Below are positions 8,726 through 52,312 of a stretch of 64,000 bases of DNA, piece after piece (within the stretch, counting starts at the first letter, position 1; each line of letters starts with the position of its first letter). Below the pieces are notes generated by a model, which saw only the letters and a program-made list of their open reading frames with translations, did no database searches and was not told the DNA's origin. Origin of the DNA: Pyropia yezoensis (lineage: Eukaryota > Rhodophyta > Bangiophyceae > Bangiales > Bangiaceae); contig CM020619.1 in the NCBI GenBank assembly GCA_009829735.1, positions 28,794,063-28,858,062 on the forward strand, written 5' to 3'. The position numbers were made by a program, and so were the translations under genes.

Positions 8726-8736
8726 ACACTTCGGTA

Positions 8737-12056: not shown

Positions 12057-12068
12057 CCTCCCCCCCTT
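12057..12068 (-). other. E3 polypurine tract
   Basis: AAGGGGGGGAGG in element orientation, directly before the 3' LTR; it primes plus-strand DNA synthesis. It starts inside the TAA stop codon of pol. Confidence 0.85.
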
Positions 12069-15558: not shown

Positions 15559-15581
15559 CGGTTTTGATGACGGTTGCTGCT

Positions 15582-21246: not shown

Positions 21247-21258
21247 AAGGGGGGGATA
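21247..21258 (+). other. E0 polypurine tract
   Basis: AAGGGGGGGATA next to the 3' LTR; same sequence as in E1. Confidence 0.85.
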
Positions 21259-24854: not shown

Positions 24855-24867
24855 TATCCCCCCCTTA
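24855..24867 (-). other. E1 polypurine tract
   Basis: AAGGGGGGGATA in element orientation, abutting the 3' LTR. Confidence 0.85.
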
Positions 24868-25439: not shown

Positions 25440-27887
25440 ATGTCCTATCCCCAGGTGCTTGGAGAGGAGGAAGACCTCCTGATCGGGGAGGAGATGGAGG
25501 ACGACGCGCCTGTCGGTCCCGACGCCGCGCGTTACGGGGTGAGCTCGTCTGACGACGACGGGCCTGCGGTGTCCGTCCGTCTGTCGGCCGGAGGACTGTC
25601 GTCCGTGTGCAGCGGCACGACGGTGCCGTCGGCCGGAGGTCAACCCGGCGGTCAACCGCGCGTCGCGGCTTCTACCCCCTCTCTGCCGGCTGCCCGGATG
25701 GAGCCTGGTGCCGGTGCCGGCTCACCGCAGCTACCTCAAGATGGTCCGCCCTGCGGCGGAGGTGGCGACCCGCAGCCGACTCCGGCTGGTCAAGGTGGTC
25801 CGGGTGTCCGGGCGGTGACTCCTCGAGGCGGTCCCGACGTTGACGCGGGTGGTGGTGGCGGTGCGACACCCGGTGCGGTGGGTCAGGACGGTGCGGGTGT
25901 CCGCACGGCCGGGGCTCCGGCTCCGGAGGCTGTCCAAGTGCCTTCCCCTTCCGAGGCGGGGGCTACGCCGACGGGTGGTGCCGGCGCCGGTGCCGTACCT
26001 GCGGTGCCGCGGGCGTCGAGCGGTCAAGACGCTCCTTCTCCCATGGCGGTTGACACCGGGAGTTACTCCGGGCGGGCGCCCGCCCTTCTTCTTCCTCCTC
26101 GGCCTCGTCCATCTCCGACGTCGGCCCCTCTTCCGGTGGTGCGTCCCCCGGCGCCCCCGATTCTTCCTGGTCCTGCCCGGGTTGCCCCGTTGGGTGGCGG
26201 CGTCGCCGTGGCGGCGGGTCAACCCGCCATGTCGGTGTCCGACTTGGTGGCTCGGGTTCGAGGCCTCACGGTGAAAGAGTCAATGGAGTCCGATGGGCGT
26301 ATGCGGGTGGACTTCCACCTGGTGCATCACCGTGGAGAGTCCTCCCGCCGCGTTAAGGTGGACCCGAGCTGGGAGCGGGAGTTGGTGCGGCTGGTCAACC
26401 AGCCGAACGCGGTCCGGGTGGAACATCATTGGATCCTGAGTCAGCCGGACGACCGGCATGCGCAGCTCTGGCGCACCCGGGTGGGACGGGGTGAGGTCTA
26501 CCTCGACCCCAACTTCGGGGTCTGCGACTTTATTGCCCCCGCGTTGCCGCGGGAGATTGACTACCCGGCTAGTGCTCGGGGGATTGCGGCGGCGGCGGAG
26601 CCGGTTGCGTTTGGGGAGACGGTGAGCCGTACCGGTCGGTATCCCGACTTTGACTACTACCCGGGGGTACCCCCGTATCTGTCGTTGACGGCTCCCTACC
26701 CGCCCATGGCGGGGTTGAAGTCGGCGTCGAGTTGGCGACGTAACCATGGTGTCATGGCGGATGCGTTCCGCACGGATATAACGTGTGCGTTGCAGACCGG
26801 CAACGGTCGTGCTCCGGTATACACTCCCGTGCGCCCGCCGCTATGGCAGGAGGGGTGGGAACCCGCCCCTGCTTTCCGGTTTGACACCGGCTCCTGCTTT
26901 CGCTACTTCGGGAGTGTGTTGGCCTCGCGACCGGTCCACCCGTTGCAGGGTACCTTCACCCTTGAGGTTACCCTCGGGCAGGCTTCATCCTTTTTGCTGT
27001 CCGTCCGCCGGCAGGGTCGTCTGTTTCATCTCCCGACGGGTGTCCGTCGGCACATCGCGCAGTTGGGCGTGGATCTGATGGCCGCCAAGACCGGGTTGGC
27101 CCGGGAGTTCGAGGCCCTGCTGGCTGTTCACGATGCCGTGAACTGGGCTGGGGTGTTGGCCCTTCCCCCGTACCGGGATCCGCAGGCTGGGGCTTCCCCC
27201 TTGCCTCGTCACTCGTTGCGTGTCCGGCGTACTCAGCCGGGTGAGCCCAGTTGCCATGGGTGGGCATCCACCGAGGCTGTTGCTGACCTGGGTATTCCCA
27301 TGGTTATCCATGACCCTCTTCAGGTCCTTGCTCCGTGGTTCGGTAACCCGATGCCGGCGGCGGTTGGCCGTCGTCCCCGAGAGTGGGGCTCTGTGGGTGG
27401 GGAGCGTGAGGTGTCCCGTCGTCGGGCGGAGTACCGCCGTGGTTACGGTGGAGCCCCTTCGGTAGGGTCCTACCGGGCCTCGTATCAGGTGCCACCGGCT
27501 CCGGTGGTAGCCGTGTCGGCTCCTGTGGCTCCTCTGGCTGCGCCAGTGTCACCTCCCGCCCCTGTCCTACATGACGGGGGTCCCCGTCTCTGGTATGAAG
27601 ACGTTGACGCCCTTGTTACCCGCGCAATGCGTGGGGGTCTCTCTGTTAGCTGGGGGGATATCCCCCCAGGTGCTGCGCTGGTTGGGTCAGCGCGTTGCTT
27701 CGGTGGCGTGCTGGACCGCCTCCAGAAAGCTCTGGAGGACGTGGAGGCTGGCCGCAGCACCCTCGTCCAGCTTTGCACCGAGGTAACTCGGGCGATTGAC
27801 CGTCGTGAGATTGCCGACCGGTGGAGCACGGAGGTATACGCGCTTACGCGTGAGTGGCCTCCCTCGGGCAGTGGGTCTACCCACTGA
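25440..27887 (+). CDS. E1 antisense ORF protein
   Basis: 815 residues from the ATG at 25440, 585 bases inside the 3' LTR and convergent with pol. Residues 1-260 are acidic then Gly/Ala/Pro rich; the rest is compact. Visible landmarks: WILSQPDDRHAQLW (about 331-344), DYYPGV (405-410), RQGRLFHLPTG (524-534), QLGVDL (541-546), and a C-terminal part with a likely helix (LDRLQKALEDVEAG). It is very similar to the E0 protein and more distantly resembles the antisense proteins of E2 and E4 (YYP, then a leucine/tryptophan-rich segment, then R-x-L-x-x-LP). Function unknown; an RNA-binding, silencing-suppressing or regulatory role would be speculation. Confidence 0.78.
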   Translation: MSYPQVLGEEEDLLIGEEMEDDAPVGPDAARYGVSSSDDDGPAVSVRLSAGGLSSVCSGTTVPSAGGQPGGQPRVAASTPSLPAARMEPGAGAGSPQLPQDGPPCGGGGDPQPTPAGQGGPGVRAVTPRGGPDVDAGGGGGATPGAVGQDGAGVRTAGAPAPEAVQVPSPSEAGATPTGGAGAGAVPAVPRASSGQDAPSPMAVDTGSYSGRAPALLLPPRPRPSPTSAPLPVVRPPAPPILPGPARVAPLGGGVAVAAGQPAMSVSDLVARVRGLTVKESMESDGRMRVDFHLVHHRGESSRRVKVDPSWERELVRLVNQPNAVRVEHHWILSQPDDRHAQLWRTRVGRGEVYLDPNFGVCDFIAPALPREIDYPASARGIAAAAEPVAFGETVSRTGRYPDFDYYPGVPPYLSLTAPYPPMAGLKSASSWRRNHGVMADAFRTDITCALQTGNGRAPVYTPVRPPLWQEGWEPAPAFRFDTGSCFRYFGSVLASRPVHPLQGTFTLEVTLGQASSFLLSVRRQGRLFHLPTGVRRHIAQLGVDLMAAKTGLAREFEALLAVHDAVNWAGVLALPPYRDPQAGASPLPRHSLRVRRTQPGEPSCHGWASTEAVADLGIPMVIHDPLQVLAPWFGNPMPAAVGRRPREWGSVGGEREVSRRRAEYRRGYGGAPSVGSYRASYQVPPAPVVAVSAPVAPLAAPVSPPAPVLHDGGPRLWYEDVDALVTRAMRGGLSVSWGDIPPGAALVGSARCFGGVLDRLQKALEDVEAGRSTLVQLCTEVTRAIDRREIADRWSTEVYALTREWPPSGSGSTH

Positions 27888-28201
27888 GGAGTGTTATTGT
27901 TTGCACGGGAGAGGGACCCGGTGGCCCTTATGGTAGCCGGGTAGTAGTGAGTATAAACTCATCCCCTGCTGGGGGCATTGCTTGCCTCTGTTTGCTGCCC
28001 TGGGGAGTACCCCTTCTGGCTCAGTGGTGCCTTGTCTCCCGCCCAACTTCTTCCGGTTGGTTCATGCTTGGGGAGGTTATCCTCCCTCACTTTGTGTCTT
28101 GGCTTGGGGAGGTCATCCTCCCGTGTAAGCTCCCTAGTTACTTCGATATTATCGGAGTTAGCCTTTACCTTTAAGTTAACTTATTAAGGTTCAGGTTTTT
28201 A

Positions 28202-28297
28202 CTTAGTTACCTAAGCTTAGCTCTACTTAGTTACCTAAGCTTGGTTCGACTTAGAAACCTAAGTCTGATTTGACTTAGAAACCTAAGTCTGCCGTAA
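28202..28297. repeat. 24-bp tandem repeat between convergent ORFs of E1
   Basis: Four units, each carrying the near-palindrome CTTAGNNACCTAAG, starting at 28202, 28226, 28250 and 28274. They lie between the stop of the antisense ORF (27887) and the stop of pol (28368), where both transcripts should end. Confidence 0.8.
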
Positions 28298-28367
28298 CCA
28301 TGTCACACCCTACTTAGTAGGTATAAGCCTCACCCCCCAACAGCCGAAGTCGGTGTCGGTTGGGTTG

Positions 28368-31300
28368 TTACAGTAGGCGTCGTCGCCTCATGTACGGCAT
28401 GAGGAGTTGGCGGGGTATATTTGCCGCCTGTTCCCAGGTGGGTGAGTCGTATCCGACCCACATAACCTTGACGTACCAGGGTCCTGGTAGGTCCGGGTCG
28501 GTGTGTCCGACCACGCTCTCTACTTGGTATGGAATCCCATCCGGTCCCACCAGGTCATCTGACCGGTGGGTTGTAAGAGCTTCATGTAGCAACCCAGCCG
28601 GTACCGGCTGAGGCTGTTCCGGCATCGGAGCAGGTGTGACATCATTCATGCTGATGCGTTGAATCTCCGTATCGGAGTGTAAGATAACAGAGTGGTCATC
28701 TCTGTGGAGGATCTGGTACGGTGCCTTGACCGGTTGCATAAGCTTGTTCCCTCGGAACTTCTGGTGTCTGATATAGACCCAGTCACCTGTTACCAGGGTT
28801 GCGTTGCGCACCCGTAGTCGGGCGTCGAAGTTCTTCTTGTATCGAAGTTGTGTTCTGTCAAGGGCACCCTTGAGCTTAGGAATCATCCACGATAGCTTGG
28901 CCAACCAAGCTAGGTGGATGCGTTCGGCGGGTCGGCCCTTCGGTGTATCATACCGAGTGCACCTGCCGGGTGGCAGCGTCAGGTTACCGACGCCTAGTGG
29001 CATGACCCACTCCAGCGGAGCAATGTTTGTGCTCCGATGTGGTCTGGCATTGTATGCCAGGGTGAGTACGGACAGAAGCCTGTCCCAAGTGTTCGTGTGC
29101 TCGGCCACGTAGCACTGTAGCATCTTTACGATGGTGCGGTTGAACCGCTCCACCTGCCCGTTGGAGTGCGGGTGGTAGTCGGATGCCCGACGTGGTTCGA
29201 TACCGAACATGCCCAGGACCTTAGTGCAGAATGCCGACGTAAGGTTTGCTCCGTTATCGGAGAGGAGTTGCTTCATGACTCCGTATGCACTGATCCAGTG
29301 GTCAACCACTGCGTTCATGATCGTGTATGCCGTATCATTCGGGATGGCTGCCGCTCTTGACAGCTTAGTGAAGCGGTCAGACATGACCAGGATGTACCTG
29401 TTCCCTTCTTCCGTTACCGGAAGTGGCCCGAGTATGTCGATAGCGACTTGCTCGTTGGGCCCATCGGGTGGGAATAGCTTCATGGCAGACGCCTGCCTAT
29501 GTAGACTCATGCGGTTACGCGCACAGGGGTGGCATCCCCTTACGTGGTCGACCACGTCGACGGCCATTGCTGGCCAGTAGAAGAACCTTCGCATTGCTGC
29601 GAACATACGTGAACCCCCCGGGTGTCCGGCTGTGGGGTTCTCGTGTTCTCGTTCCATGAAGGCTTGCCGTAAGGACACGGGGACCACGACTTGATGTCGT
29701 CCATCGGCGGGTGCCCGCCGGTATATGAGTCCGTCTTCGTTCTCGGAGAAGATGCCGGCCGTACCGGCCAGGAGGTTAGCGCGATGACGTCTACAGTCAT
29801 CGTCGTTGGCCTGTGCCTCGCGGAAGTCCGCGAGGGTCAATGGGCACGCAAGGTGTGCCATGGTATGGTCAGCCATACCCTGGGTAGCATTACCCACCAT
29901 GCACACCGGTACCACCGGGATGTCCTTGTCCACCGGGCGGGTATCCCCGCTCGGGGTGTCGAGTCGAGACAAAGCGTCTCCGAGGTGGTGGGTTGACCCA
30001 GCCTTATACACCGTGCGGTAGTCGTGCTCGGCCATCTTCAGCCTCCATCGGGCTAGCCTCCCATGGCTATCGGAATCCTTGTCACCAAGGTTGAGGAGCC
30101 ATCGTAGGGGTTCGTGGTCGGACCTCACGATGAACCTGGAGCCCTCCAGGTATGGACGGAGCAGTTGCACTGCCCATATAACTCCGAGGCATTCACGCTC
30201 GGTGGCACTATAGTTCCGCTCAGCCGGGTTGAGTGTCCGGCTGAAGTACCCTACCGGACGTAGGTCCGGGATAACGTTGTCGGTACCTATCAACGTCTCT
30301 CCCTGTAACAGGGTGCATCCCACTTGTGTATCACACGCATCGACATCGATGACGAAGGTACCCCGTCTATGCGGTAACGCAAGGACGGGTGGGGCTAGTA
30401 GGGCTCGCTTCAGCGACTCGAATGCCTCCTCTTCGCTAGGCGAAGGGGGTTGGAGTACCTTGGGTAAGGTACTGCTCGTAAGAACCGTTAACGGTTTAGC
30501 TATCCGAGCGAAGTCCTTGACGAACCGTCGGTATACATTGCACATTCCCAGGAAGCTCTTGAGCTGCGTCTGGGTGTTAGGGAACCGGGCATCCCGGAGT
30601 GCCCGGGTATTGGCTTCGAGTACCCCTAGTTTACCAGGGGTTATCTGGTGGCCCAGATACTCGACCGTCTGTTGGAAGAAGGCGCACTTCTTCAGACGCA
30701 GGGTTACCCCGGCGTTCCTCAAGAGGGTGAGTACCTCGTCAACATGTTGTACATGGTCATCCATGTTACGCGAGAAGACGATGACGTCATCGAGGTACAC
30801 TAGGCAGTTACGCCACTTCACCCCCGACAGTATAATGTCGATAGCCCGCTGGAATGTAGCGGGGGCATTGGACAATCCGAAGGGCATCCTTAGGAACTCG
30901 TACACTCCACTGTGACAGACGAATGCCGTCTTGGGGATATCCTCGTCCGCCACCGGGATCTGCCAGTATCCGGCATTGCAGTCGATGGTGGTAAACACCG
31001 TAGCCTCCCCCAGGGAGTCGATGCATTCATCCATCCTTGGTAAAGGGTATGAGTCCTTCTTGGTAACCAAGTTGAGGCGTCGATAATCGATGCAAAACCG
31101 AGGGGTTTGATCCTTCTTCGGCACAATAACGACTGGGGCACCCCATTCCGACATCGAAGGTCGGATCACCTTAGCTTCACTCATCCTCTTCACTTCTTCA
31201 TCGACGATCTCTCGTTGCATAGGTCCCGCTCGGTGCGGTTGTGAGCGGGCGGGTCGTGCGCCTGGTACCAGGTCTATACGATGTTGGGTTGCCCCAATGG

Positions 31301-32549
31301 TCCCCAAGGCCCCGCCTGTCCACATAACGTCATGCTTTCTTAGCATCCGTCGTACCCCTTCGGCTACCGAAGGGTGAAGGTGGTCGAGGTCAGCCTCGGC
31401 CAGTGCCTTCAAGGCCTCTTGGTCCTTTGGCGGCAGGTCCGCCGGAGCCGCCGATGGGTTAGGCTTCCCGTCATCGGGTTGCTGTCGCTCGGTGGTCTCG
31501 GCGACCGCCAGTACTTCAAGTGGTTCCACTTGACCTTCCTTATCAGGGGTAAGGATATCTCCTTCGTAGAGTTCGGCAATCCCGAGGATAGTTCCCTTCG
31601 GGAGGGTGACTGCCTTACGGCGATAGTTCGCCATCACTAGGAGGGACGACCCTCCTGCTGGGAGGTCTATGAGACCGTTGGCCATGGTCAACCCATGGCG
31701 CTTGTACGTCCGTAGGTTGGACAGGACTCTGCAGATGCCTGCGAGGTCGCAGTTAACCCGGGAGGACTGTCTCTGACAACGGCTCAAAGCGAGTTCGCTT
31801 GGCCAATCGAAGTGTCTTCGGCTCGACGCTTGCGTACACCTCAGCCACGTTAACGTGGCTTCCTTGTAGCGTCAGATCCCTGACGATAGCCGTGTGTCCT
31901 CGCTTCGTCCCGTCGGCTTCTTGAAGCTCGACGGTCCTCCGGCCTGGCCGGATTGCATCAACGTGAACGTTGATGAAGGTGCACCCCAGTATGCAGGGCA
32001 CCGATAGCGTTTCACATACCAGGAAGTCAACTTCCGTGGTAAGATCCCCGATGGTAACCCGCAGCGACATCGCTGCGGTCGTACGAATGAGTCGACCATT
32101 CGCGTCCTTGATGGTGGGTCCCCGAGTCACTCTGACTCGTGGAAGCCACTTGTCCGGGAGGGTATCCTTCCGGATAAGGTTGGGTCCAGCCCCTGTATCC
32201 AGTACAGGGTAGTACGATCGTGTCGACTGGGGGTCAACCCCCAGTGTGGCTGATACCTTGAAGTTCTCCAAGGTAAACAACACATGTCCTACACCGATAT
32301 CCGGTGTAGCTCGGGCATCCTGAACAGGGCCCTTGTCTGGTTCAACGTGACGGGGCTTCCCGTCCTCTCCTCCCAACCTTGGAGGTTGGTCATCAATCCC
32401 CTGACGCCGTGTCGTCGGGGCCGGAAGGTGTACCCGGGGGTTGATGCGGCGTCGGCTCAACCGCGCTCTCCGTGGGGCTTTCCCCGCGGTACTCCGGGGT
32501 GGCTTGCTTGGGTGACCCCAGCGCCCCCCGGTCATCCTTCCTCTTACTC
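28368..32549 (-). pseudogene. pol: E1 Pol (PR-RT-RH-IN-chromodomain), one frame break
   Basis: Entered by -1 frameshift at 32550-32556. The first part (to 31753) holds the protease (LDTGAGPN). Its frame ends in a TAA at 31753, while the next frame is open from 31787 to 28368, so one base is gained or lost near 31755-31785. The second part carries reverse transcriptase (MPFGLSNAPATFQ, YLDD), RNase H (DVDACDTQVG, SDHEPLRW), integrase (HHCC with HPCARNR; catalytic Asp in AIDILGPLP, Asp in LSDNGANL, Glu in GQVERFNRT) and a C-terminal chromodomain-like end (YVKVMWVGYDSPTWEQA). All later active-site residues are intact, so the break could be recent or a sequencing error. Confidence 0.88.
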
Positions 32550-34022
32550 GTTTCCCGCCCTTGGTAGGGTGCTGTCCGCCGGGACATCCGGCTGAGGAGG
32601 TGCCTCCTCGACGGCCAGTACTCCACCTGGAGCTGGCTGCCTACCCGGTGCGGGTCCGGGTGCTCGGGCGGGATACCCCCCGGTGGATGCCTTGCGTTGC
32701 GCCGCTGCCCGCCGAGACTCCTCGGGGATGAGTGGGCAGGAAGACACCCAGTGCTGGGGATCCCCACACAACATACACCCGGACGTGCCGGTCCCCCCTT
32801 GAGTTCGCATCGGGGTAGCCCCGTAGCTACGGTTGCCTCCCTCGGGCGCCCGAGTGCCTGCTCCCTGGTAGGCCTTGGGTCCTTGGGTCAACCGGAACAT
32901 GGACTCCCCCAACCGGTTGGGTCGGCCCGCAATCTGCGGAGGTGCCTCCGTGCGCACCGCCCATGTTGGCAAGGGTTGGTGAGGGTTACCCGTCACCGGG
33001 GAGTACCCCGTAGTCCGCACATACGGGACCGCCGTCCCGTTCCTTCGTTGACCTGGAACTGGGTTCCAGCCGGGGCGATGTACGCTACCGTACCATGTTC
33101 ATCAATCACCGGCGTCGCCGGTAGCAGCAGGTGGCCCTGTTTGGTCGACTAGAGGGTCATCCTCACCAATAGGGGTATGTTCGGTTGCCACCAGTACTGG
33201 TGCGGCCTTACGTTCACCTTCTCTTGCCTCGGTACCGGGGTTAAGACTGGGCTTGCCTCCCTCACCCTTGGGCTTCGGGGCCAAGGCACACTCCGGGTGT
33301 AGAACCCGGTAGGCGTCCCCTAGGGACTTGCACATATGCATCAGTCGACTGAAGTTCGTCCGTGCCGTGTTGGCGCCCCGTGCGCATATCCGCACGTAGT
33401 TGGGTACTCCTGCGAACAGGATGGCCCGTAGCTCGCCTTCTCCGAGGAGCTTCCCCAGCTCGTAGTCGAGCTCTTGGATCCGGCGTCCAAACATCTCCTC
33501 ATCCTCCAGGACTGGGCGGTGGCAGTGCGAAGGGCCCGATAGTGGTCCTCGCACTTGTCCTCACTGAGGTAGCTGCTCAGCAGCTCCTTCAATATCCCAC
33601 GGTAATCCATGGGGGTGGCCGCGACCCTCATTCCCGGCATCGGGGATGCCTGGCGAAGAATGCCTCGCACCCGTTCATCAACAAAGAACGGGAGGATCTC
33701 CAGGGCCAGCCCCTCGTTAACGAGCGCCTTGTCTGCGGCTGCCTTGAAGCTAGTCAAGAAGCCGATGACTGCCAACGGGCGTCCGTTCGGCCCCCCGAAC
33801 ATAGGGACTCCCTTCATAAGGGTCTGCATAGAGCGGATCGCCCGATGCGACGTATTACGCATCGATTCCGATACGGTGGTAGAGCGGTCCTCCAAACGAT
33901 AACGTTCCGGAGTAAGAACCGACCGGAAAGACCTCGTTGGCGATCTCCGTGTCAGCGTCCTGGATATCCAGTCGCTTAAGCAGTTGATGAGCGAACTCAT
34001 CGGACTCCATCCGCTTCAGTAG
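32544..34022 (-). pseudogene. gag: E1 Gag, broken and cut by gap
   Basis: Pieces in different frames: N-terminal part (FAHQLLKRLDIQDADTEI) running into the gap, capsid part (FLTSFKAAADKALVNEGLAL) similar to FLRRFVKACNDNDVSEGKAL in E2, a frame change near 33500, an in-frame stop near 33102, and the C-terminal part with the knuckle CMLCGDPQHWVSSC. It ends in Gly-Asn-Glu-stop, like E2 and E4. Confidence 0.8.
32550..32556 (-). promoter_or_regulatory. E1 -1 frameshift slippery site GGGAAAC
   Basis: In gag phase GCG GGA AAC GAG TAA; the heptamer G GGA AAC is of the type used by several retroviruses. One base back, the frame is open into the protease. Confidence 0.75.
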
Positions 34023-34522
34023 NNNNNNNNNNNNNNNNNNNNNNNNNNNNNNNNNNNNNNNNNNNNNNNNNNNNNNNNNNNNNNNNNNNNNNNNNNNNNN
34101 NNNNNNNNNNNNNNNNNNNNNNNNNNNNNNNNNNNNNNNNNNNNNNNNNNNNNNNNNNNNNNNNNNNNNNNNNNNNNNNNNNNNNNNNNNNNNNNNNNNN
34201 NNNNNNNNNNNNNNNNNNNNNNNNNNNNNNNNNNNNNNNNNNNNNNNNNNNNNNNNNNNNNNNNNNNNNNNNNNNNNNNNNNNNNNNNNNNNNNNNNNNN
34301 NNNNNNNNNNNNNNNNNNNNNNNNNNNNNNNNNNNNNNNNNNNNNNNNNNNNNNNNNNNNNNNNNNNNNNNNNNNNNNNNNNNNNNNNNNNNNNNNNNNN
34401 NNNNNNNNNNNNNNNNNNNNNNNNNNNNNNNNNNNNNNNNNNNNNNNNNNNNNNNNNNNNNNNNNNNNNNNNNNNNNNNNNNNNNNNNNNNNNNNNNNNN
34501 NNNNNNNNNNNNNNNNNNNNNN
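34023..34522. other. Assembly gap, 500 N
   Basis: Exactly 500 undetermined bases, so probably an arbitrary gap size. It should hold the rest of E1 gag and its 5' LTR, and the remainder of the E4 3' LTR. Confidence 0.99.
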
Positions 34523-34547
34523 AGGGCGTCTCTCCCAACTTGGGGAG
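34523..34547 (-). mobile_element. E4 3' segment (25 bp) left of E2
   Basis: AGGGCGTCTCTCCCAACTTG and five more bases ending GGGAG, the left copy of the E2 target duplication. It continues logically at 44207 beyond E2. Confidence 0.7.
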
Positions 34548-35122
34548 TGTGGTATAAAACTCGATCCTCTCAGACACGTGTCAATATCCCTCGGGGGAAA
34601 GGGACAGGTAACGCAGAAAGGGGAACTACGAGAATGGTATGCCTGTTGCCTCACGTGCCTGCTTGCAGGGCAAACAGATACGCACGGTAGTGCACACGGG
34701 GAAGAGGAAAGCAAACGCGCAGTTGTCTTTTTCCCTGAGGGCGCGGGCCGAGGGGCGCCTCGCTGTCCCTCTTAACGTGCATCTGGGGGAACCCCGGCAC
34801 GTTGGCCCGGTAGCCCCCCCCCATAACCCCGAGTGGCCCCGACCCGAGTCTAACCTCGTCAGGTCGGGGGCCACTATCACTACTAATTCTATTCCCACTC
34901 ACTAATCTCACACTCAAATTCTCTCAAATCAAGTCCCTCACAAATATGCAAAAACACATCAGAAATCCCTCTCTCGCGTGTGGATAGCGTAGTCCACCGC
35001 ATCCCAGTGCCGGGCACGGGCCACGGCCGCCAACCATCGCCACACGGCGGGCGTGTTCTGGCACCTGGTGCCCTCTGGTTGCAGTCCCGGGTCGGCGCCA
35101 AGTCGGGGCCAGGGATGCTACA
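34548..35122 (-). repeat. E2 3' LTR
   Basis: In element orientation it begins TGTAGCATCCC and ends TTTTATACCACA. Confidence 0.93.
34553..34559 (+). promoter_or_regulatory. Antisense TATAAAA in E2 3' LTR
   Basis: The only TATAAA in the LTR, on the plus strand, upstream of the antisense ORF. No equivalent is seen in the gag-pol direction. Confidence 0.45.
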
Positions 35123-35137
35123 TAGCTCCCTCCCTAG
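35123..35137 (-). other. E2 polypurine tract
   Basis: CTAGGGAGGGAGCTA in element orientation next to the 3' LTR. Confidence 0.75.
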
Positions 35138-35306
35138 TCCGGCACGTCCTCGGGCCGAACCAGGTGCCACCGTGCACAGCCTCGAGCACGTCCACACCGG
35201 TGCCGAGGTCGAGCGTCTTCACCCCGGTCACGATTACCTGCCCCGATTCTGCCCCCCCCCTCCGCTCCTTCACCTTGGCCCTCTCGTTCCCCGGAGTCTG
35301 GACGGT

Positions 35307-37424
35307 ATGTCCAGTTCCGAGATCCAAGCTGGGCCCGTGGTTCCGGCGGCGAGTGTTGCGGAGGAGAACTCGGGTCGTCGTGCCCCTCTCCTGCCTCCGG
35401 TTCCTCGGATGTCGGTGCCGGCGCCGGTCGCCACGGCGGGGACGGATCGAGTTCCCCCGGCTTCCGCGATGCACCCGGTCGAGGCCCCCCCGGAGGGTCT
35501 CCCGGAGATGCTCCTTGGGCAGGACCCTCTGGCGGCCCGGCGTTACTCCACGGTGGTCGGCAACGCCGGCGCGGCCCAGTGCCAGCAGGATTGCATGGAC
35601 CTCTGGCGCAAGGAACTCCAGCGCGGGGTCTTGACCGAGATGGACAAGGCACGTCTTCATACGGCGGACCAGATGCGCCTGGCACAAGACCGCTCCCAGA
35701 GCTTCTCGGGTTCCTCTTGGGTTGCTCGTCTGGAGGATCTCCCCTTCGCGCTGGTACTGGATCTACCCTTGACCGAGCGTCGCGTGTCCGCGTCCGTTCT
35801 CCGGTGGCCGGAGGAGGAAGGGTACGTCCACCGGGCGCTCAAGGTCTGGGACGAGGCGCTCAAGGGGTCGGGAAGCTTGAACTGCGACCCCCGTCCGAGC
35901 ATGGTCGCTCTGGAGCCGCCTTTCTTGACCCGGAAATACTCCAAGTTGTCGCCGGCACGGGAGCAGGGTGAGCGACGCGGGCGTCAGCGTGACTTCCTTG
36001 TGAGCTGCAACCACCAGGAGTTCTGGAAGCTGGACAAGGCTAACCGGGCGGCATACTACCCCAAGGTCATCCCGCAGCAGCAGGAAGTCGAGATCCCGGT
36101 CGGGTTTGCTCCTTCCAGCATCCCTTGCACCTGGTACTTCTTGGACGCCTTGACTCAGGCGTCGATCAAGGGCTTCTTCCACTCAATCCCGTACATGATG
36201 TACACGTCCGAGATGACAGTCTTGGCGGCCAACCACTGGCTTCATGAGGTCTTGGTGTCCAACCGGCTTTGGTTTCTCCCTGACCTCCTGATGGTCTGGA
36301 TTGTCGACAAGTTGACCGTCGACTTCCTGTGCAGCCAGGACGAGGAGTACAAGGAGCTCTTCCAGGCGATGATCGACTTCCGGCGTCTGGTACCGGTGCA
36401 TGACCGGAGCTTCTTGAACGCGATTGCCGACCAGAACCGCCCGCGTCGGGATGGCTTCGGTTGGGCGCAGGTGGTCTACCAGTCTTCTCCGGCTAAGGTG
36501 CAGCTGGCGACGCCGCTTCCGGCGTGGCCGCAGCTAGGTAGCTTTCCTGCTCCGGCCGCCCTTGATCTTCTGCCAGTTGGGCCGCCGGTGCAGGAGTCGG
36601 GATGGGCCGCGGCGGTCGGTCGGGCGTCTGCGGCGGCTCCGCTTCCTCCTGTTGCCCCTGTCGCCCCGGTTGCCTCGCCTGAACCGTCACCGGCACGTCC
36701 GCGCCCTGTTCCGGCTGTGCCAGTACTTCAAGCTCCTCCGGCACCGCGCTTGTCTGCGGCGAGTCTGGGAGTGGCCGTGCGGTCGCCGATTACTCCGGCC
36801 GCTCTACCCCGGACGCCTTCTTCCAACGCCGGCGGCGCTGTGCCTCCGCTGGAGTTGGGCACTCCGGTCTCGGGGGCCGTTGTGGACCGTCCGGTAGTGT
36901 CATCCTCGGGCCGGTTCGAGATTCCGGCGCCGACTCTGCGCCTTACCCGCTTCCGGGTGCCTGACTGGTACCTGAACCAAGGTGGTCCAACATGCGACCA
37001 GTACGACGTCGGCATGATTGAAGACCAGCTGGGTCGTCTTCCGGTGCAGGTTGAAGGCGTCGGGTCCTCCCTGGTGCTGGGCACTTACGCCAGTGTCTTG
37101 AATGACGTGGTCGACCGGGTGTTTGCTTGCGCGGACAGCGGCCAGATGTCGAACAACCCGGTGGTTGGCGAACTTCTGACGACTTTGACGCGGCATGGCT
37201 TGGCCCAGCAGTGGTCAGAGACCTTCACGGGCTTCCAGCGGCGCCGACGGACATATCTGGATGAGCGGGAGCCACCGGCAACTACTGGTACTACTCCGAT
37301 GGCGTCATACCGGGATGCGCCGCGTCCACCGCACTACGTCATCCCGTCTCCCTCCGGTTCCCGTCGTACCGCGGGGGCAGCGCCGGAGGACACTCCCTCG
37401 GCTCAGCGTCCGCGCCGAGAGTAG
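35307..37424 (+). CDS. E2 antisense ORF protein
   Basis: 705 residues from the ATG at 35307; an in-frame ATG at 35115 inside the LTR would add 64 residues. It converges on pol, with 145 bases between the stops. Residues 1-70 are Pro/Ala rich. The core (about 90-390) contains AAYYPKVIP (248-256), NHWLHEVL (309-316) and RLWFLP (320-325). A long Pro/Ala/Val-rich region follows, then a second ordered block (about 545-670; FRVPDWYLNQGGPTCDQYDVG) and a basic end. The YYP and LxxLP landmarks and their order recur in the E4 and E1/E0 antisense proteins. There is no signal peptide or clear membrane helix. Intact in a young element; function unknown. Confidence 0.8.
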   Translation: MSSSEIQAGPVVPAASVAEENSGRRAPLLPPVPRMSVPAPVATAGTDRVPPASAMHPVEAPPEGLPEMLLGQDPLAARRYSTVVGNAGAAQCQQDCMDLWRKELQRGVLTEMDKARLHTADQMRLAQDRSQSFSGSSWVARLEDLPFALVLDLPLTERRVSASVLRWPEEEGYVHRALKVWDEALKGSGSLNCDPRPSMVALEPPFLTRKYSKLSPAREQGERRGRQRDFLVSCNHQEFWKLDKANRAAYYPKVIPQQQEVEIPVGFAPSSIPCTWYFLDALTQASIKGFFHSIPYMMYTSEMTVLAANHWLHEVLVSNRLWFLPDLLMVWIVDKLTVDFLCSQDEEYKELFQAMIDFRRLVPVHDRSFLNAIADQNRPRRDGFGWAQVVYQSSPAKVQLATPLPAWPQLGSFPAPAALDLLPVGPPVQESGWAAAVGRASAAAPLPPVAPVAPVASPEPSPARPRPVPAVPVLQAPPAPRLSAASLGVAVRSPITPAALPRTPSSNAGGAVPPLELGTPVSGAVVDRPVVSSSGRFEIPAPTLRLTRFRVPDWYLNQGGPTCDQYDVGMIEDQLGRLPVQVEGVGSSLVLGTYASVLNDVVDRVFACADSGQMSNNPVVGELLTTLTRHGLAQQWSETFTGFQRRRRTYLDEREPPATTGTTPMASYRDAPRPPHYVIPSPSGSRRTAGAAPEDTPSAQRPRRE

Positions 37425-37569
37425 TAGTTGGAGGCAAGGAGGGTGAGGGTCTTGGGAGAAGCGAGGAGGGAAGAGGCGGAGAGAAGGGTTGCTCGAGCGG
37501 GTGCTTGGTTTCCTTGATTGTTCCATGCTTGCATTGCGTGTTCTCCTTGATATACCCGTTCCCTTCTTC

Positions 37570-40500
37570 TCAATCCTCTTGTTCCGCATCCGTTGCGGGT
37601 GAGCTCGTCTCGTCCCGAGGGTCTTGGTTGGCCCCGTCCTCTTGGTCCTCCTCCGTGTCCGACTCCAGAATCTTGCCGGCTCTGGCCACGGGAGTGCCCT
37701 CAATCCCGTTCCGTCGCGTGTAGGCACAGACGTCCGCGATGGGTAGCCGGTTTGAGGGTTCCCAGGTATCATCTGCCGGGTTGAAACCGAACCAGCGTAC
37801 TCGCAGGTACAGGCGTCCATCTCTCCAGGCATGGTCGACAAACTTGACGTAGACAAATTCCCGACCTTCTTCTTGGGATAGCCAGGGTATCGCAGTCCGC
37901 TTACGCCGGGTCAAGTCCCGTTGGCTTGGCGGTGGAGCTCGGGTGACATGGTCGCTGCTCACCCGGTACGGAGAGCCATCCACATCTAGAAGGAAGGTCC
38001 AGCCATCCGTATTGAGAATCTCATAAGGTCCATCCGTCTTAGAGTCCAGCTTCCCCCGGGTCTTGCTATGGTTGTCCACAAAAACCCAGTCGCCACCACC
38101 CAGTTCCTTGTTCTTTTCCCGGACACCCTTGTCATAGTCCCGCTTGTATCGCTCCTGGGTCTTTGAAATTGACTCCTTGACTCTTGGGAGCAGGAGCTTT
38201 AGTTGTTCCAGGAACTCATCCTTTGCCTTGGGACCTGACTTCAGTGCAGGCTGGAGACCATCCGGTATTCTTTCCAGGGAGAAGTTGGTCAGCCGCCTTG
38301 GGGTGACAAAGTCGAGTGGAGCGACTCCCGTTGTCCGGTGAACTCGGGAGTTGTAGGCTAGAGTGAGGACAGCCAGGAGCTCGTCCCAGTCTTCTTGGTG
38401 CTCCTCCACGTAGTGCCGTAGCATGTCCACTAGGGTCCGGTTGAATCGTTCCACCTGGCCGTTCGTTTGAGGGTGGTACGTCGTGGTGTACAAGTTCTTG
38501 ATGCCCATCAGGTCACAGACTCCTTGGAAGAACAGGGATGCAAACTGGGGACCGTTGTCGGTTAAGACGGAGTCTGGAGGGCCGTAGGCAGCTATCCAGT
38601 ACTCGCAGAAGGCCGACGTGACATCCAGAGCCGTGATGGTTCTCAACGGGATTGCTCGAGTGAACTTGGAGAACCGGTCACAAATGATGAGCAGGTATAT
38701 GTTGCCACTGGAGGTCTCAGGTAGGGGCCCCAGGATGTCCATGCTTAAGCTTGCAAAGGGCTCCGCCGCAGGGAATAGGCGTAGCTTAGAAGTCTTCTTC
38801 CTCTGGGACAACCGGTTCCTTGCACAAGAAATACAAGCCTCCAGGCACTTATGGACGTCACTGGCCATGGTTTCCCAGTAATAATGTCGTCTCATGGAAG
38901 CATACATCCGATTGATACCAGGATGTCCGGCCTGGGGAGACGAGTGCTCCAGGCGTAGGATGTCAGTCCGTAGGCTCCGGGGTACGTAGACTTGAGTTGC
39001 CCCATCGAAGGGTGACACCCGTACCAGGAGTCCGTCTGTAGACTCGGAGAAGCGACTGTTCCGGTTCAGGTCCATTTGGTGGCGAAGCTCCAAGCATTGA
39101 GGGTCCGTCAATTGTGCCTCCAGCATCCGGTGAATGGTTACCGGTTGATGAGCGTCAGGTGTCTCGTACAGGGGAGCGTGCCAGCCACGTCCGACATTCG
39201 GGAGGATGAAGCAAGGTATTTCCTCCGGGATAGGACCGGTATCGGCTGCAGGAGTCTCCAGCCGGGACATGGTGTCGGCGCAGTGGTGCTCCCTCCCTGC
39301 TCTGGTGCACACCTTGTACTTGAACTCCGAAAGGCGTAGGCGCCACCGGGCGACCCTTCCTTGACTGCTGTCCATGCATAGCAGCCACCTTAGACTGGCG
39401 TGGTCCGTCCGGATGAGGAACTCTTGTCCTTCAAGATATGGACGTAACAGGAAGCAAGCCCAGACGACCGCCAAGCACTCGCGCTCGGTCGTGGAATAGT
39501 TCTTCTCGGCTGGAGTCAAGACGCGACTGTAGTAGCCTATCGGGAGGAAGTGCCCATCAGGTTGCTGCTGGAGTAGTGAGCACCCCACCTGGACACCACA
39601 GGCGTCAGTCTCCAGAACAAACTGACCCTCCCGCTTGGGTAACGCCAGTACTGGAGTGGTGGTCAGGCGCTTCTTGAGCTCTTCGAAGGCTGCTGTCTGC
39701 TTCTCGTCGAACACCGGGAGTTGTGCTGGAAGCTTCTTGCTAGTAAGCTTGGTCAAGGGCCGGGCAATCAGAGCGTAGTCTCGTACGAACCGGCGGTAGA
39801 CGTTGCACATACCCAGGAAGCTCTTGAGTTCCGTCTGGGTTTTAGGTTGCCGTGCATGCCGGAGGGCCTTGATGTTCTTCTCATTGACTCGGAGCTCCCC
39901 CGGACTCAGCACGTGCCCCAGGTACTCCACCTCAGTCTCAAACAGGTGGCACTTCTCGGCCTTGAGGGTAACTCCAGCCTTGGACAGGAGGGCCAGGACC
40001 TCTCGAAGGTGCTCCAAGTGTTCCGCTGGGGTCTTGGAGAAAACGATGATGTCGTCCAGGTAGACCAAACATGTTCTCCACCTTAGCCCCGACAGGATGA
40101 TGTCGATGGCTCTCTGGAAGGTTGCCGGAGCATTAGTGAGACCAAAAGGGAGACGCTTGCACCGGAACAGTCCCATGTGGCACGTGAAGGTAGTCTTGTC
40201 CTTGTCCTCGTCAGCCAGAGGGATCTGCCAGTAACCGGCATTACAATCCAGCGTCGAGAAGAGGGTGGCATCACCAAGAAAGTCGAGGCAATCATCCATC
40301 CGGGGTATCGGGTATACATCCTTGACTGTCATCTCGTTCAGGCGTCTGTAGTCAACGCAGAAACGGAAGTGACCGCCAGGTTTCGGGACGACTACCACCG
40401 GGAAAGCCCACTCGCCATCAGACGGCTCGATAACATCCATCTTGAGCATCTTGTTAACCTGCTTCTCAATCTCATCCCGGCGATGAGGTCCAGCCCGGTA

Positions 40501-41663
40501 TGGGTGCATGTGCACTGGTTTGGCATCTGGCTTGAGTTGAATCCGGTGTAGGGTGGCGTCCATCTTGCCCAGCTCTCCAGACCACAGGTGCCGATATTCC
40601 TGGAGAAGCTTCTCCAGTGCCTCCTTCAAGTCGGGAGGGACGTTTTCTTGGTTGACCTTCGGCATCCCGGGCGGTGCTTGTTCGGGCTTCGGAGTAGTAC
40701 GGCCAGCCTGCTCTTGTTCCGGAGATACGTCTAAGGCCGTCAAGTTGGATGCCAGCTCTTGTTGCAGGTTCAAGAGGTCTTCCTTGCTCATAGCGCGGGC
40801 GGACCCCCGGTAAGGCTCTGCTGTACCAACTCGAGTGCCCTTGGCGAGGGTTATTGGCTTCCGGCTCACGTTGACGATCAGCACCGAGAACGGGGTGTGC
40901 CTCCCCACCTTCTTGTGGTGTCCGTGGGCTAGGTATAATCGGTGTTTCGCCAGAAATTCCTTGCGTCCGTAGATCAGGCATTGACCTGCAGTCCGGGTCG
41001 TGACTTGAACCTTGGTCTCCGAGCGAGGAGGTAGGAGCACCGGTTTGATGAGGGTCAAGGTAGAGGGTGGGATGCGTTCCTTCTGGTTCTTGGCCACACG
41101 AACCTTGGTGTCCAGGTGCTCCAGCACTGGTGACACAAACCCATGGTTGAACTGCACCTTTCCTTCTCCGGGTAGGATGCTCTTGACATGCTGCTTCTGG
41201 AAGTCCCAGCCTAGGATGAGGGGGACTGATAAGGTCTTGACTACTAGAAAGGGAAAAAGCATTGGTTCATTGTTGACATAGATGGCGACGGGAAGACGGC
41301 CAAGCGGTCGTAAGGTTTGACCTGATGCGTCTACAATCCGGGTCTTGGTAGGCGCTCTCCAGGCATGTCGACGCCAGCCCGGAGGTAACAGGTTCTCAGT
41401 GATGACGCTTGGTCCGGCTCCCGTGTCGACCACCGGCGTAACAGCTTGGGGGAGGCTATCCCCCACACGCATACGAGCATTAATCTTGAGGTTTTCCTTA
41501 CGCAGGACGAGCAAGGTCCCCTTGAACAAACAGGGTGTCCAGGCGGCTACCGGTTGAGCAGGTAACTGCCGTCCTTTCTCCCGGCACGCAAGGGGAGAAC
41601 AGGTAGAAGTACCCTGCCGTTGGAGATTCGGGAAGACACTTGGGGAGAGCGCCTGCCCTACTC
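37570..41663 (-). CDS. pol: E2 Pol polyprotein (PR-RT-RH-IN-chromodomain)
   Basis: Reached from gag by -1 slip at 41664-41670; the frame has no stop from there to 37570. Counting from the first TTG at 41529 (1319 residues): protease VVDTGAG (Asp35), reverse transcriptase YLDD at 490-493, RNase H Asp642 and TDH at 708-710, integrase zinc ligands His862, His869, Cys899, Cys902, triad Asp931, Asp991, Glu1027 with 35 residues between the last two, and a chromodomain-like end (YLRVRWFGFNPADDTWEPS, about 1241-1259). A Glu/Asp-rich tail of about 30 residues follows. All catalytic residues are present. Makes the enzymes for reverse transcription and integration. Confidence 0.95.
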
Positions 41664-43418
41664 GTTTCCCGGCTCCGAGGAGTCCTTAGAGGTTTCGGTC
41701 TCCAGGTCAAAGTCCGTAGGAGCTTCCCTTGCCAGAGCCTCCGTGATGCTCTGTAAGGTTGCCACTCGGATGGCATGTACCTGTGCCTTGTCCATCTTGG
41801 AGGGTGCCCGCCGGTCAGCCCAGTTGACCGCCTTTGCAAACACCAGTCTTTGACGCTTGAGTTTCTCCTGGAGATCCTCGGGAATGGTCGGGCACTGGTA
41901 GGACATATGATCCTCCTTCTGGCACAGCCAGCAAGACCGGAACCGCTGGTTCCTGATCTGCTTGGGGGCGACCAGGGAAGGTTGCTCCTTAGAAACGAAG
42001 CCGCCCCACTTGTCCCTTGACTCCATGGGTGAGGCCTCGCCAACTGCGAGTACCGGTACAGGGTTATCACCTCCCTTATACTTGTCGGGTCCGGGACGAA
42101 CTCGCGACAACGGCTTGGGGGTTGATACCATAGGAGCCTGGAGGGCCTTGGCTTGCCGGTGCTTGCCCTGGGTGTAGGCCATCAGCTGCTGGAAGGTATG
42201 TTCTTGATGTTCCTGGTTGTAGTTCTCCGCATCCACTTGAAGATATTCAGGAAGCCCCTCCGAGAAGATCATCTTGAGCCTGTCCTCAGGGTAAACGTTG
42301 CCACAAGCATCGCTCATCTCCCGGACACGACGGGCGAACGCCTCTGGAGTCTCTTGTCTCTCCATGGTTGCCCGGTTCAGCCTACCGACTGCCTTACGCA
42401 GGGAGTCCGCGTCTGCGTAGTTGGACAGGAGCCAGTTGACCGCCTCCGGATAACTCGCGACGGTACGTCCAACAATGTGCCCGGCAGAGTCTGGTAGAAC
42501 CTGTGCAAACCGCTGTTCCGCTTCTCCGGTCATGAAGTTAACCAGGAGATAGAGAGCCTTGCCCTCGGACACATCGTTGTCATTGCATGCCTTGACAAAC
42601 CGGCGCAGGAAGGCAAAGATAAGCGCCGGTCTCTTCCCGGAAAACTTAGGATGTCCCCCAAAGCTCGGCTGCATTCGCCGGTTCAGGGATGCCATCTTCT
42701 TGGCCATCTTCCGGGTGTAACCTTGGTCTTGGTTCTCCAGCCGGTAGTTACCCCAATACGTGACCTTGTTCAGGGTGGCATCTCCCACTTGGTGGGCAGG
42801 GAAGTCGAACTCGACTAGCCTGCGCCGGGTAGGACCGGAAGATGCATCCCAGTCATATCCCTCCTCAGGGCTGGAGGAACTGGTCTCGCTGGTGCTAGAG
42901 CGGCGGCGACGACGCCGACGCCTACGGCTGCTCCGGTCACCGGTCTTGGAGCTCCCCGCCCCATAGGACGCAAGGGGAGGAAAAGCTTGGCCGGTCCCAG
43001 GAGTCGAAGTCTCAGGAAGACCCGTAGAACCAGTCATAGCGGTGCCTCTGGCACTGCTAGTGCCCACAGGAAGAGGTGTATACACCCAGCTGCCATGTGT
43101 GGGTCCAGGAGTAAACACACCAGGGGCTATCCCTGGAGGTTGAAGAGTAGAACCGACAGGAGGGAGACGTCTGCTGCGAGCGGACTCAAACGCCGTTGAC
43201 CCCGGGGTGGCTCCCACAGGAGGAACAGCCGGAGGAACGGGAGCAGGCGGTACTTGGCCGCCTGTAGACTCCAGTCCACTACCGGATGTCACGCCCAGGT
43301 CTGCTTCACCCGTAGGGAGAACGCCGGGTTGGGCACCGTCCCCCGCGGTGACCAGGGATGCGTCAAGGGACGCGGGGTCTACCCCTTCGGGCACCGTCGT
43401 GCCAGGGAGGGTAGCCAT
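41658..43418 (-). CDS. gag: E2 Gag with CCHC zinc knuckle
   Basis: 586 residues from the ATG at 43418, about 190 bases after the primer site. A Pro/Gly/Ser/Thr-rich N-terminal 150 residues, then an Arg-rich patch (SSRRRRRRRRRSS), then the capsid domain (FSGKRPALIFAFLRRFVKAC and onward, with AVNWLLSNYADADSLRKAV), then the knuckle CWLCQKEDHMSYQC. It ends Gly-Asn-Glu-stop over the slippery site. Confidence 0.93.
   Translation of the reverse strand: MATLPGTTVPEGVDPASLDASLVTAGDGAQPGVLPTGEADLGVTSGSGLESTGGQVPPAPVPPAVPPVGATPGSTAFESARSRRLPPVGSTLQPPGIAPGVFTPGPTHGSWVYTPLPVGTSSARGTAMTGSTGLPETSTPGTGQAFPPLASYGAGSSKTGDRSSRRRRRRRRRSSTSETSSSSPEEGYDWDASSGPTRRRLVEFDFPAHQVGDATLNKVTYWGNYRLENQDQGYTRKMAKKMASLNRRMQPSFGGHPKFSGKRPALIFAFLRRFVKACNDNDVSEGKALYLLVNFMTGEAEQRFAQVLPDSAGHIVGRTVASYPEAVNWLLSNYADADSLRKAVGRLNRATMERQETPEAFARRVREMSDACGNVYPEDRLKMIFSEGLPEYLQVDAENYNQEHQEHTFQQLMAYTQGKHRQAKALQAPMVSTPKPLSRVRPGPDKYKGGDNPVPVLAVGEASPMESRDKWGGFVSKEQPSLVAPKQIRNQRFRSCWLCQKEDHMSYQCPTIPEDLQEKLKRQRLVFAKAVNWADRRAPSKMDKAQVHAIRVATLQSITEALAREAPTDFDLETETSKDSSEPGNE
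41664..41670 (-). promoter_or_regulatory. E2 -1 frameshift slippery site GGGAAAC
   Basis: In gag phase GAG CCG GGA AAC GAG TAG. The -1 frame reads on for over 1300 codons. Confidence 0.8.
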
Positions 43419-43606
43419 GTTGGTCTCTTGACAGCCACAGTCCAGTTACCTGCGTGTCCAAAGATCGCAAGACCACAAGAGAGGGGTTGGAGAGCCAGGA
43501 ATGGGATTCCCGTGAACGGGTGCAAATAATTCCCAAACCACAGAAAAAGACAGAATAGGAACAACGCAACCGCTGCTCCCAAATGTCTCTTCTCAAACAC
43601 TCCAAT

Positions 43607-43623
43607 CCCCTGCTGCTCCACCA
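43607..43623 (-). other. E2 primer-binding site
   Basis: TGGTGGAGCAGCAGGGG in element orientation, four bases inside the 5' LTR. It would pair with a tRNA 3' end CCCCTGCTGCTCCACCA. The same 17 bases occur in E4 at 52294-52310. I cannot name the tRNA. Confidence 0.75.
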
Positions 43624-43627
43624 AATA

Positions 43628-44201
43628 TGTGGTATAAAACTCGATCCTCTCAGACACGTGTCAATATCCCTCGGGGGAAAGGGACAGGTAACGCAGAAAG
43701 GGGAACTACGAGAATGGTATGCCTGTTGCCTCACGTGCCTGCTTGCAGGGCAAACAGATACGCACGGTAGTGCACACGGGGAAGAGGAAAGCAAACGCGC
43801 AGTTGTCTTTTTCCCTGAGGGCGCGGGCCGAGGGCGCCTCGCTGTCCCTCTTAACGTGCATCTGGGGGAACCCCGGCACGTTGGCCCGGTAGCCCCCCCC
43901 CATAACCCCGAGTGGCCCCGACCCGAGTCTAACCTCGTCAGGTCGGGGGCCACTATCACTACTAATTCTATTCCCACTCACTAATCTCACACTCAAATTC
44001 TCTCAAATCAAGTCCCTCACAAATATGCAAAAACACATCAGAAATCCCTCTCTCGCGTGTGGATAGCGTAGTCCACCGCATCCCAGTGCCGGGCACGGGC
44101 CACGGCCGCCAACCATCGCCACACGGCGGGCGTGTTCTGGCACCTGGTGCCCTCTGGTTGCAGTCCCGGGTCGGCGCCAAGTCGGGGCCAGGGATGCTAC
44201 A
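43628..44201 (-). repeat. E2 5' LTR
   Basis: 574 bp direct repeat of 34548-35122. Its outer end lies 9 bases before the ATG of the E4 antisense ORF. Confidence 0.93.
43633..43639 (+). promoter_or_regulatory. Antisense TATAAAA in E2 5' LTR
   Basis: Same box as in the 3' LTR; here it points at the E4 antisense ORF starting at 44211. Confidence 0.4.
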
Positions 44202-44210
44202 GGGAGGACC

Positions 44211-46154
44211 ATGGCGACCCCGGGAATGGAGACAGACTCTCTGGACGAACGTATGGAGGACACCTCCTACGGTGCAGCGCCCGCCGGGACTTCCGGCGGG
44301 GGCTCCGCGATCGTTCCAGGGGATGGGACTCCCGCGTCACCCGGCTTTGGGTTGACGGCGGGATCTCCCCCGGAGGCGGGACAAGTTGTCCCGCGTGAGG
44401 CCTTGTGGCGGTGGTTTTACCCCGCTTGGCCTCTATATGAGGAGGGGTTGACTGTTCTTCGCTGTGGCCGACTTGGCGCAGCGATGGGTCGGGTATGGGA
44501 CCGCCTACGGGAGAAGTTCCCCGGTAGGGTCGGGTCTCCTCCCGACTTCAGGACGGACCAGATTGCCTTCCTGGATGAGGACGAGGTCGAAGACGTGCAG
44601 CGGGCAAAGGCCATGGAGGACCGCGGGGGTACTATCTCGGGCACTGGCGACGTGCCAACCTTCACTTGGGACGCGGTGGCAACTCGCCCCCCGTACCTTC
44701 ACGAGGCCGATCCGCACACTCGTCACTTTGATGTGCGGATGGAGAAGGACTTCCGGCGAGGTCCCTACTTGGTGACCTCGGCTCAACTTGAGTTCCCTCA
44801 GCAGTCGGCTGCCAGTAAGGAGCAGTACTATCCGAAGAAGCCCGAGTGGTGGCCTCAAGTTGAGGTCCCCTACGGGTTCCCGGCGTTGCTACCACGGTTG
44901 CTTGACCACTTCGGCGCCGTCATGTTGACGGCTGGCCCAGATCACCTGGTGTGGGCCATGTTGGCCACCCAGTGGCTCCTCGAGGTCATGTCGACCAGGG
45001 TGTCTTGTGTTCAGCGGCGGGGGATGCTCTGGCATCTCCCCCTCCGGCATTTCCAAGGTTTGGAACAGCTCACCCCTCAGCTAGTTGCTGAGGGGTGTTC
45101 ATCAGGACAACTCACGCTACTTGAGGAGATGCTCCGCCTCCACAAGTTTATCGAGTGGGAGAGCATTGAGCACAAGTTGCGCCGCCCCACTCGTGGGCCC
45201 AAGGACGATGGCGCACTTCGCCAGTTCGTGTGGGTCGCTCGTGAACTTCACGACGGCCGTGTGGTCCTACGATAAGGGTTGGGCATCGGGGACTACCCGT
45301 ATGCCCCGGGGGTGGATCGCCACACTGCGCCACCCCCGGACAAGGCCATAGTTATGGCCGTGCCCTCATATGATGACCATATGACTCAACCCACTGCGGG
45401 GGCGCCAAGTCGGGGTCGCAGTTACACCCGGGTCCCGCCACCTCGGCCTGCCCCTCCGCTTCCTCCTGACCCCTACCAGCCGCACGGGGACATCCCGATT
45501 AGCGTGGCCGTTAAGTCGTCCACCCTGGTGTCCCCCAACTTGGGGGCCACCCTCCTGACGGTATACCCCAAGTTGGTGTTACCACCCACGCTTCTATCCT
45601 CAGAGATGATGATCACCACGTTGGTGCGCACCATTTCCTGGTTGGCCGCGTCGACCGCAACCCTTCAAAGTTCCGAGACTCCTCAACTTGAGGAGCGCGT
45701 TCGTACTGCAGTGGCGACCGCGAGTTGCAAGTCGGTGGCGGAGTTTATGACGGCCGAGTTGGCTCGCATCGGGGCTATTATGTCCCAGCCAGCCCCACTT
45801 GGGCGTGGCAAACGTCGCGCGAGCCGGGCATACTCGCCTCCTCGCCGTCCTCGCCGATACTCGCGGCGCTCTCCCTCCGTGTCGGAAGACGAGTTGTCTT
45901 ACTCCGTCTCGGAGTCCTCGACTGCGTCAGAGTCGGAGTCGGTCCGGCGTCTGCGTCGCCAACTTGCGCGCAAGACTAAACAGAAGGGCAGCCGTGGTCG
46001 TCGCCATTTGCGCGACCGTGAGGGGCGCGGTGGTTCCGACTTGGAGCCGCCGGCCCCGCCGACTGGTGGGGAGCGTTATCGCCGTGGGTCTCGCCGCTCG
46101 CCTCCACGTGAGGGCGAGGGCCGTGGGGTTGGAGAGTCTAGCATGCATGCCTAG
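44211..46154 (+). pseudogene. E4 antisense ORF protein, one stop
   Basis: 648 codons in one frame from the ATG at 44211, broken only by TAA at 45273-45275; the original protein would be about 646 residues. The core has QYYPKKP (205-211), TQWLLEVM (253-260), GMLWHLP (271-277) and LLEEMLRLHKFIEW, which parallel the E2 landmarks and the E1 segment GRLFHLPTG...EFEALLAVH. The last 120 residues are rich in Arg and Ser (SPPRRPRRYSRRSPS), like splicing-factor tails. It converges on pol with 111 bases between stops. E2 inserted just upstream and removed it from its own LTR. Confidence 0.72.
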
Positions 46155-52310: not shown

Positions 52311-52312
52311 AA

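Follow-up and report, generated by a model that had tools for sequence, protein, structure and literature searches.

In a stretch of 64,000 nucleotides from the red alga Pyropia yezoensis (GenBank assembly GCA_009829735.1, contig CM020619.1, positions 28,794,063 to 28,858,062 of the forward strand; hereafter the window, whose own numbering is used below), the long terminal repeat (LTR) retrotransposons E1, E2 and E4 and the remnant E0 each carry a long open reading frame (ORF) on the strand opposite to gag and pol. Going by sequence comparison, this antisense ORF very probably codes for an accessory protein, in elements that belong to one Ty3/gypsy clade of the Bangialean red algae. As a kind, antisense ORFs in the interval from pol to the 3′ LTR have already been described (PMC7264820).

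The initial annotation had reported the four ORFs as convergent with pol, and this was confirmed. The E1 ORF (25440..27887, plus strand) encodes 815 residues from the ATG at 25440, within a stop-to-stop frame of 25158-27887, and 27 of 30 copies have their ATG at an identical offset. For E2 (35115..37424, plus strand), the first ATG at 35115 gives 769 residues and is located inside the 3′ LTR (34548..35122, minus strand), 8 nt from its edge, and the next ATG at 35307 gives 705 residues. E0, a remnant without its own pol, encodes 789 residues from the ATG at 20670 (18301..20670, minus strand). The E4 frame, annotated as an ORF of about 646 residues, is present from the ATG at 44211 (44211..46154, plus strand), but the copy in the window is interrupted by one stop (354 codons, the stop and 292 codons, hence 646 codons and a stop); other loci of the genome have intact copies of the E4 type. 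The location between pol and the 3′ LTR, assigned to all of them, was seen in the window for E1, with a stop-to-stop pol frame at 28368..31871 (minus strand), and for E2, with pol at 37570..41685 (minus strand, stop to stop), whereas the E4 element's own 3′ LTR is not visible adjoining its antisense ORF. E3 was correctly described as lacking the ORF: its pol (12067..15627, minus strand) ends at 12067, only 10 bp from the LTR, and so leaves no space for one.

Substitution patterns indicate that purifying selection maintains the core of the antisense protein, which we defined as amino acids 341-700 of the E1 frame. Between E0 and E1, for which the initial annotation had proposed this comparison, the ratio of nonsynonymous to synonymous divergence (dN/dS) is well below 1, at 0.27 in the core (dN 0.032, dS 0.119) and 0.34 for residues 341-909. 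Random placement of the 57 core substitutions between E0 and E1 produced on average 39.3 amino-acid changes compared with the 22 observed, and none of 5000 runs was as low; when only the C-terminal part was considered, 237 of 5000 runs were that low. When E1 was compared with 29 other copies, the corresponding ratio pN/pS was 0.53 in the N-terminal part, 0.24 in the core and 0.46 in the C-terminal part, against 0.21 over 338 pol codons, in a sample (the best 30 of the 50 scored E1 copies) that favours intact copies and in which E1's own branch enters every comparison. Among these 30 loci, the ORF was free of gaps in all, with one stop in the core, and pol contained three stops and one frame-breaking gap. 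E0 and E1 (18301-21621 and 24493-27887) look mosaic, with an LTR stretch that is 94-100% identical, a core dS of 0.12 and a dS of 0.68-1.3 in the N-terminal ORF part, possibly as a result of recombination among subfamilies.

The same comparisons make it most improbable that the antisense RNA matters rather than the protein, either as a regulatory RNA or as a source of small RNAs, with the frame being incidental. The convergent layout and the existence of subfamilies with stops would suit such a role, and antisense retrotransposon transcripts can act as RNA (PMC7264820), but selection on amino acids in the antisense frame would be unexpected under it, as would frames as long as 909 or 845 codons, which chance would hardly produce. 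None of 500 dinucleotide shuffles of the regions between pol and LTR reached the longest frame of E1 (909 codons stop to stop) or of E2 (766), and the length of the first unbroken piece of E4 was reached by one in 500. Coding on the sense strand was dropped, as the sense frames across the E1 core are interrupted by 6, 18 and 13 stops and no long sense frame is found there.

The antisense proteins of E1 and E4, and likewise those of E2 and E4, are clearly homologous as judged by their alignments. In blastp within a set of six sequences, E1 and E4 share 25% identity over 186 amino acids (E 1.7e-8) and E2 matches E4 with E 6.6e-5, and hhalign returned P 3.6e-5 (probability 71%) for E1-E4 and P 1.8e-4 (48%, 68 columns) for E2-E4. 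The scores of E1-E4, E0-E4 and E2-E4 correspond to z values of 13.6, 10.7 and 9.4, each reached by none of 2000 shuffles, with segments that were picked after the alignments had been viewed. E1 and E2 match each other at best with E 0.41 in blastp and with P 0.01 (probability 4%) in hhalign, although their C-terminal ends are alike at a level reached by 9 of 5000 shuffles. Their kinship rests on E4 as the link, because both pairs with E4 are significant and the direct comparison is weak. Of the three ordered landmarks proposed for these proteins, the motif R/M-L-x-x-LP is in register in the alignment of E1, E2 and E4. The other two do not hold: DYYPG of E1 is out of alignment with YYPK of E2 and E4, and HWLHEVL of E2 does not align with QWLLEVM of E4.

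Instead of the three separate lineages assumed earlier, E1, E2 and E4 form a single Ty3/gypsy clade of three families with mutual pol identities of 43-48%, and E3, at 30-34% identity to them, falls outside. The E1 pol, which comprises reverse transcriptase (RT), RNase H, integrase and a weak chromodomain, matches Ty3 Gag-Pol over residues 194-1054 (E 2e-111). Chromodomain scores are 58.5 bits for E3, 23.9 for E2, whose domain is likewise weak, and 16.1 for E1 (Pfam cut-off 25.1); the tail of the E4 pol (46290..50408, minus strand, interrupted by stops in the window copy) was judged by eye only. A clear retrotransposon chromodomain occupies 12067-12366 in E3, and the accessible part of a 2012 survey reports none in the P. 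yezoensis data of that time (PMC3350952).

On the simplest reading, the common ancestor of E1, E2 and E4 would have carried the antisense gene, which would evolve faster than pol, with antisense cores of about 25% identity between families. That rate resembles gag (about 31% between E2 and E4) and would fit a structural or spread factor, related to particle assembly, envelope or movement, that lies on the antisense strand by chance. We consider such a factor unlikely, as simple scans found neither a membrane-spanning stretch nor a CxxC pattern, and alignment to gag was at chance level in eight of nine control pairs, where the top z was 2.5 (E4 with E3 gag, 5 of 300 shuffles) and the next 1.7.

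The presumed accessory gene is abundant in the genome, of which 107,475,971 bp in 11 contigs were searched, including three large ones of 43.6, 34.3 and 29.4 Mb; the P. yezoensis genome is reported as about 108 Mb with 48% repeats, mostly LTR elements (PMC7423979). Copy counts are partial because only the best candidates, ordered best-first, were scored. Stop-free ORFs were found in 49 of 50 scored E1-type copies (the best 50 of 36,477 first-look candidates), 36 of 54 E2-type copies (the best 54 of 23,590) and 74 of 76 E4-type copies (query P0006; the best 76 of 3,562), but intactness alone proves little because many copies are nearly identical. The C-terminus of pol converges with the antisense ORF in all 30 E1 loci. 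RT pieces could be paired with 12 of 50 E1 copies (gap 2459-2483), 27 of 54 E2 copies (gap 2351 in all) and 7 of 76 E4 copies (six gaps of 2452-2453 and one of 4648), and every paired piece, in all three types, is downstream of the antisense ORF on the opposite strand. Unpaired copies are expected, as only the best 85, 75 and 66 RT matches were used for pairing.

Protein searches with E1, E2 and E4 found at least four, one and one relatives, respectively, among the best 8000, 7999 and 4536 candidates scored. Three of the relatives are 'hypothetical proteins' of Pyropia vietnamensis on different contigs, with identities of 59, 48 and 33% by best local alignment and 51, 49 and 45% by multiple alignment. 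The protein P0002 matches 67 scored places in the same genome as the window at 50-53% identity. No relatives were found in viral contigs searched with the E1 alignment or in genome contigs searched with the E4/E2 alignment. The earlier remark that no family with these motifs is known agrees with our searches, as Pfam gave nothing above its cut-off, NCBIfam gave no match for five proteins, and no PDB entry matched below E 0.3. A match of the C-terminal half of E1 to DUF6214 (E 0.014) was below the cut-off and was set aside. We give little credence to a captured host gene carried as a passenger: the absence of similarity to other retrotransposon proteins would be in line with such an origin, but the gene is common to three families with pols about 45% identical and to a second species, and no host homolog is among the protein matches listed from the same candidates.

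How might the accessory gene be expressed? With the gene placed antisense in the interval from pol to the 3′ LTR, we regard it as probable, on the basis of sequence features, that an antisense mRNA starting in the 3′ LTR is translated into the accessory protein. The start within the 3′ LTR is suggested because the first antisense ATG of E2 is inside the LTR. A TATAAA in the antisense direction is found in the LTRs of E2 (34553..34558, plus strand) and E1 (24684..24689, plus strand), and TATA[AT]A occurs in these LTR stretches only in that direction, once in each. At the place of the E1 TATAAA, the five commonest contexts, representing 26 of 30 copies, all hold TATAAA. The ATG in the LTR and the antisense TATAAA would fit antisense transcription out of the 3′ LTR, of the kind described in HTLV (PMC7264820). 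A scan for bacterial-type promoters was set aside as not meaningful for an alga.

The accessory protein could act in trans on the expression or the nuclear phase of its own element, by regulation or counter-silencing; we propose this action tentatively, and the regulatory or anti-silencing role in particular is a guess. E4-type proteins have many basic stretches, E1 has a single one, and E0 and P0002 have none; given this uneven distribution, nuclear action, too, is a guess.

Several results weigh against a single protein that is maintained and deployed in this manner in all families. The similarity that the initial annotation had anticipated, clear for E1-E4 and E2-E4, was only suggestive for E1-E2 (z 3.1, reached by 24 of 2000 shuffles) and not significant for E0-E2 (z 0.6, 504 of 2000 shuffles as high). 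Moreover, the C-terminal likeness of E1 and E2 is absent between P0002 and E2 (3698 of 5000 shuffles) and between E1 and the second piece of E4 (1197 of 2000). Stops occur in 18 of the 54 E2-type copies, namely in 12 of 13 at 94-96% identity and 6 of 41 closer ones, and three TGA codons interrupt the antisense frame at 11 of the 67 scored places matching P0002. The stop-bearing copies of both types imply that the protein may be dispensable in cis. Furthermore, the 5′ LTR region of E4 contains no TATAAA, and simple pattern scans detected no clear nuclear-signal patterns in E1, E0 and P0002. The P0002-matching places with three TGA codons perhaps represent an inherited stop-bearing subfamily.

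Additional antisense ORFs between pol and the 3′ LTR (aORF-3R) are known as gene23 of maize Grande, which has its own upstream promoter, and from rice RIRE2 and bean PvRetro13 (PMC7264820). The red-algal gene is like them in place, strand, convergent layout, the number of copies and occurrence in more than one species, and it is retained in most scored copies with a core conserved nearly as pol is (0.24 versus 0.21). It differs in belonging to a red alga and to a Ty3-like clade with a chromodomain-like tail, and the comparison is by description, not by sequence. TRP28 (PF04195) of the Retand elements is also antisense, in the region between pol and 3′ LTR, and near-universal in its family (PMC11963269). 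Retand elements contain tandem repeats in that region (PMC11963269), where E1 has a short array of a 24-bp unit (28200-28291, between the antisense stop and the end of pol). Although place and strand are the same (PMC11963269), a distant relationship of the red-algal protein to TRP28 is very unlikely. Retand is a flowering-plant non-chromovirus, TRP28 is reported from flowering plants only in the accessible part of its source (PMC11963269), and hmmscan of the three cores, one C-terminal piece of E1 and four homologs gave nothing for PF04195 at E values up to 10, with HMMER filters that drop most weak matches.

The brtn gene of Boty from Botrytis, likened here by description, is an additional gene on the antisense strand of an LTR retrotransposon from a fungus (PMC7264820, PMC8365987). 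HBZ of HTLV-1, too, is encoded antisense and read inward from the 3′ LTR (PMC7264820, PMC11963269), but it belongs to a human retrovirus, and no known domain was found in the red-algal protein; the likeness is one of anatomy and manner of working only. As far as the accessible parts of these sources go, antisense accessory genes have been described in flowering plants and one fungal element, with no function shown (PMC7264820, PMC11963269, PMC8365987). Among the papers listed in our literature searches, we found no antisense retrotransposon gene of red algae. It is conceivable, though we hold it with some reserve, that the antisense accessory gene of the red-algal clade is ancient, predates the split of the families and is unrelated to those of plants and fungi. 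If so, antisense genes would have originated repeatedly at one and the same site in the element, suggesting a common advantage of the antisense position at the 3′ LTR, such as expression when the sense promoter has been silenced. The red-algal set, being selected, abundant and young, would offer an independent system in which many near-identical copies and close stop-bearing relatives make the need for the protein, in cis or in trans, testable.

The elements are partly nested. E2 (34543-44206) is inserted in E4 and is bounded by LTRs that are 99.8% identical (5′ LTR at 43628..44201, minus strand), with TG..CA ends and a 5-bp target duplication (34543..34547 and 44202..44206). It ends 9 bp (the target duplication plus 4 bp) before the antisense ATG of E4, so that the right LTR of the inserted E2 now faces the E4 antisense ORF. 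A run of N at 34023-34522 may hide the 5′ LTR of E1 and the 3′ LTR of E4. For the 3′ LTR of E1 (24493..24973, minus strand), the outer edge is backed by other copies, homology beginning exactly at 24493 in 21 of 29 and no more than 5 nt away in 28 of 29, and the inner edge was placed by a polypurine-like tract. No pol of E0 was found within the window, and E0 stops at the junction with E3. E3 consists of gag, pol and its chromodomain between LTRs at 11210-12056 and 17332-18178 (98.7% identity).

An identical primer-binding-site-like sequence adjoins the 5′ LTR in E2 (43600-43627) and E4 (52290-52313), and E3 has a different one. The segment 2798-3265 is 83% identical to the 5′ LTR region of E4 (52314-52781) and is probably a solo or old LTR. 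Three 570-bp tandem units lie in a stretch of 75% GC at 22134-23573, and an inverted repeat of 233 bp (99.6%) is found at 4558-4790 and 8735-8967. A minus-strand ORF at 108-1148 has a SAP domain (29.5 bits, cut-off 23.9) and is possibly a host gene.

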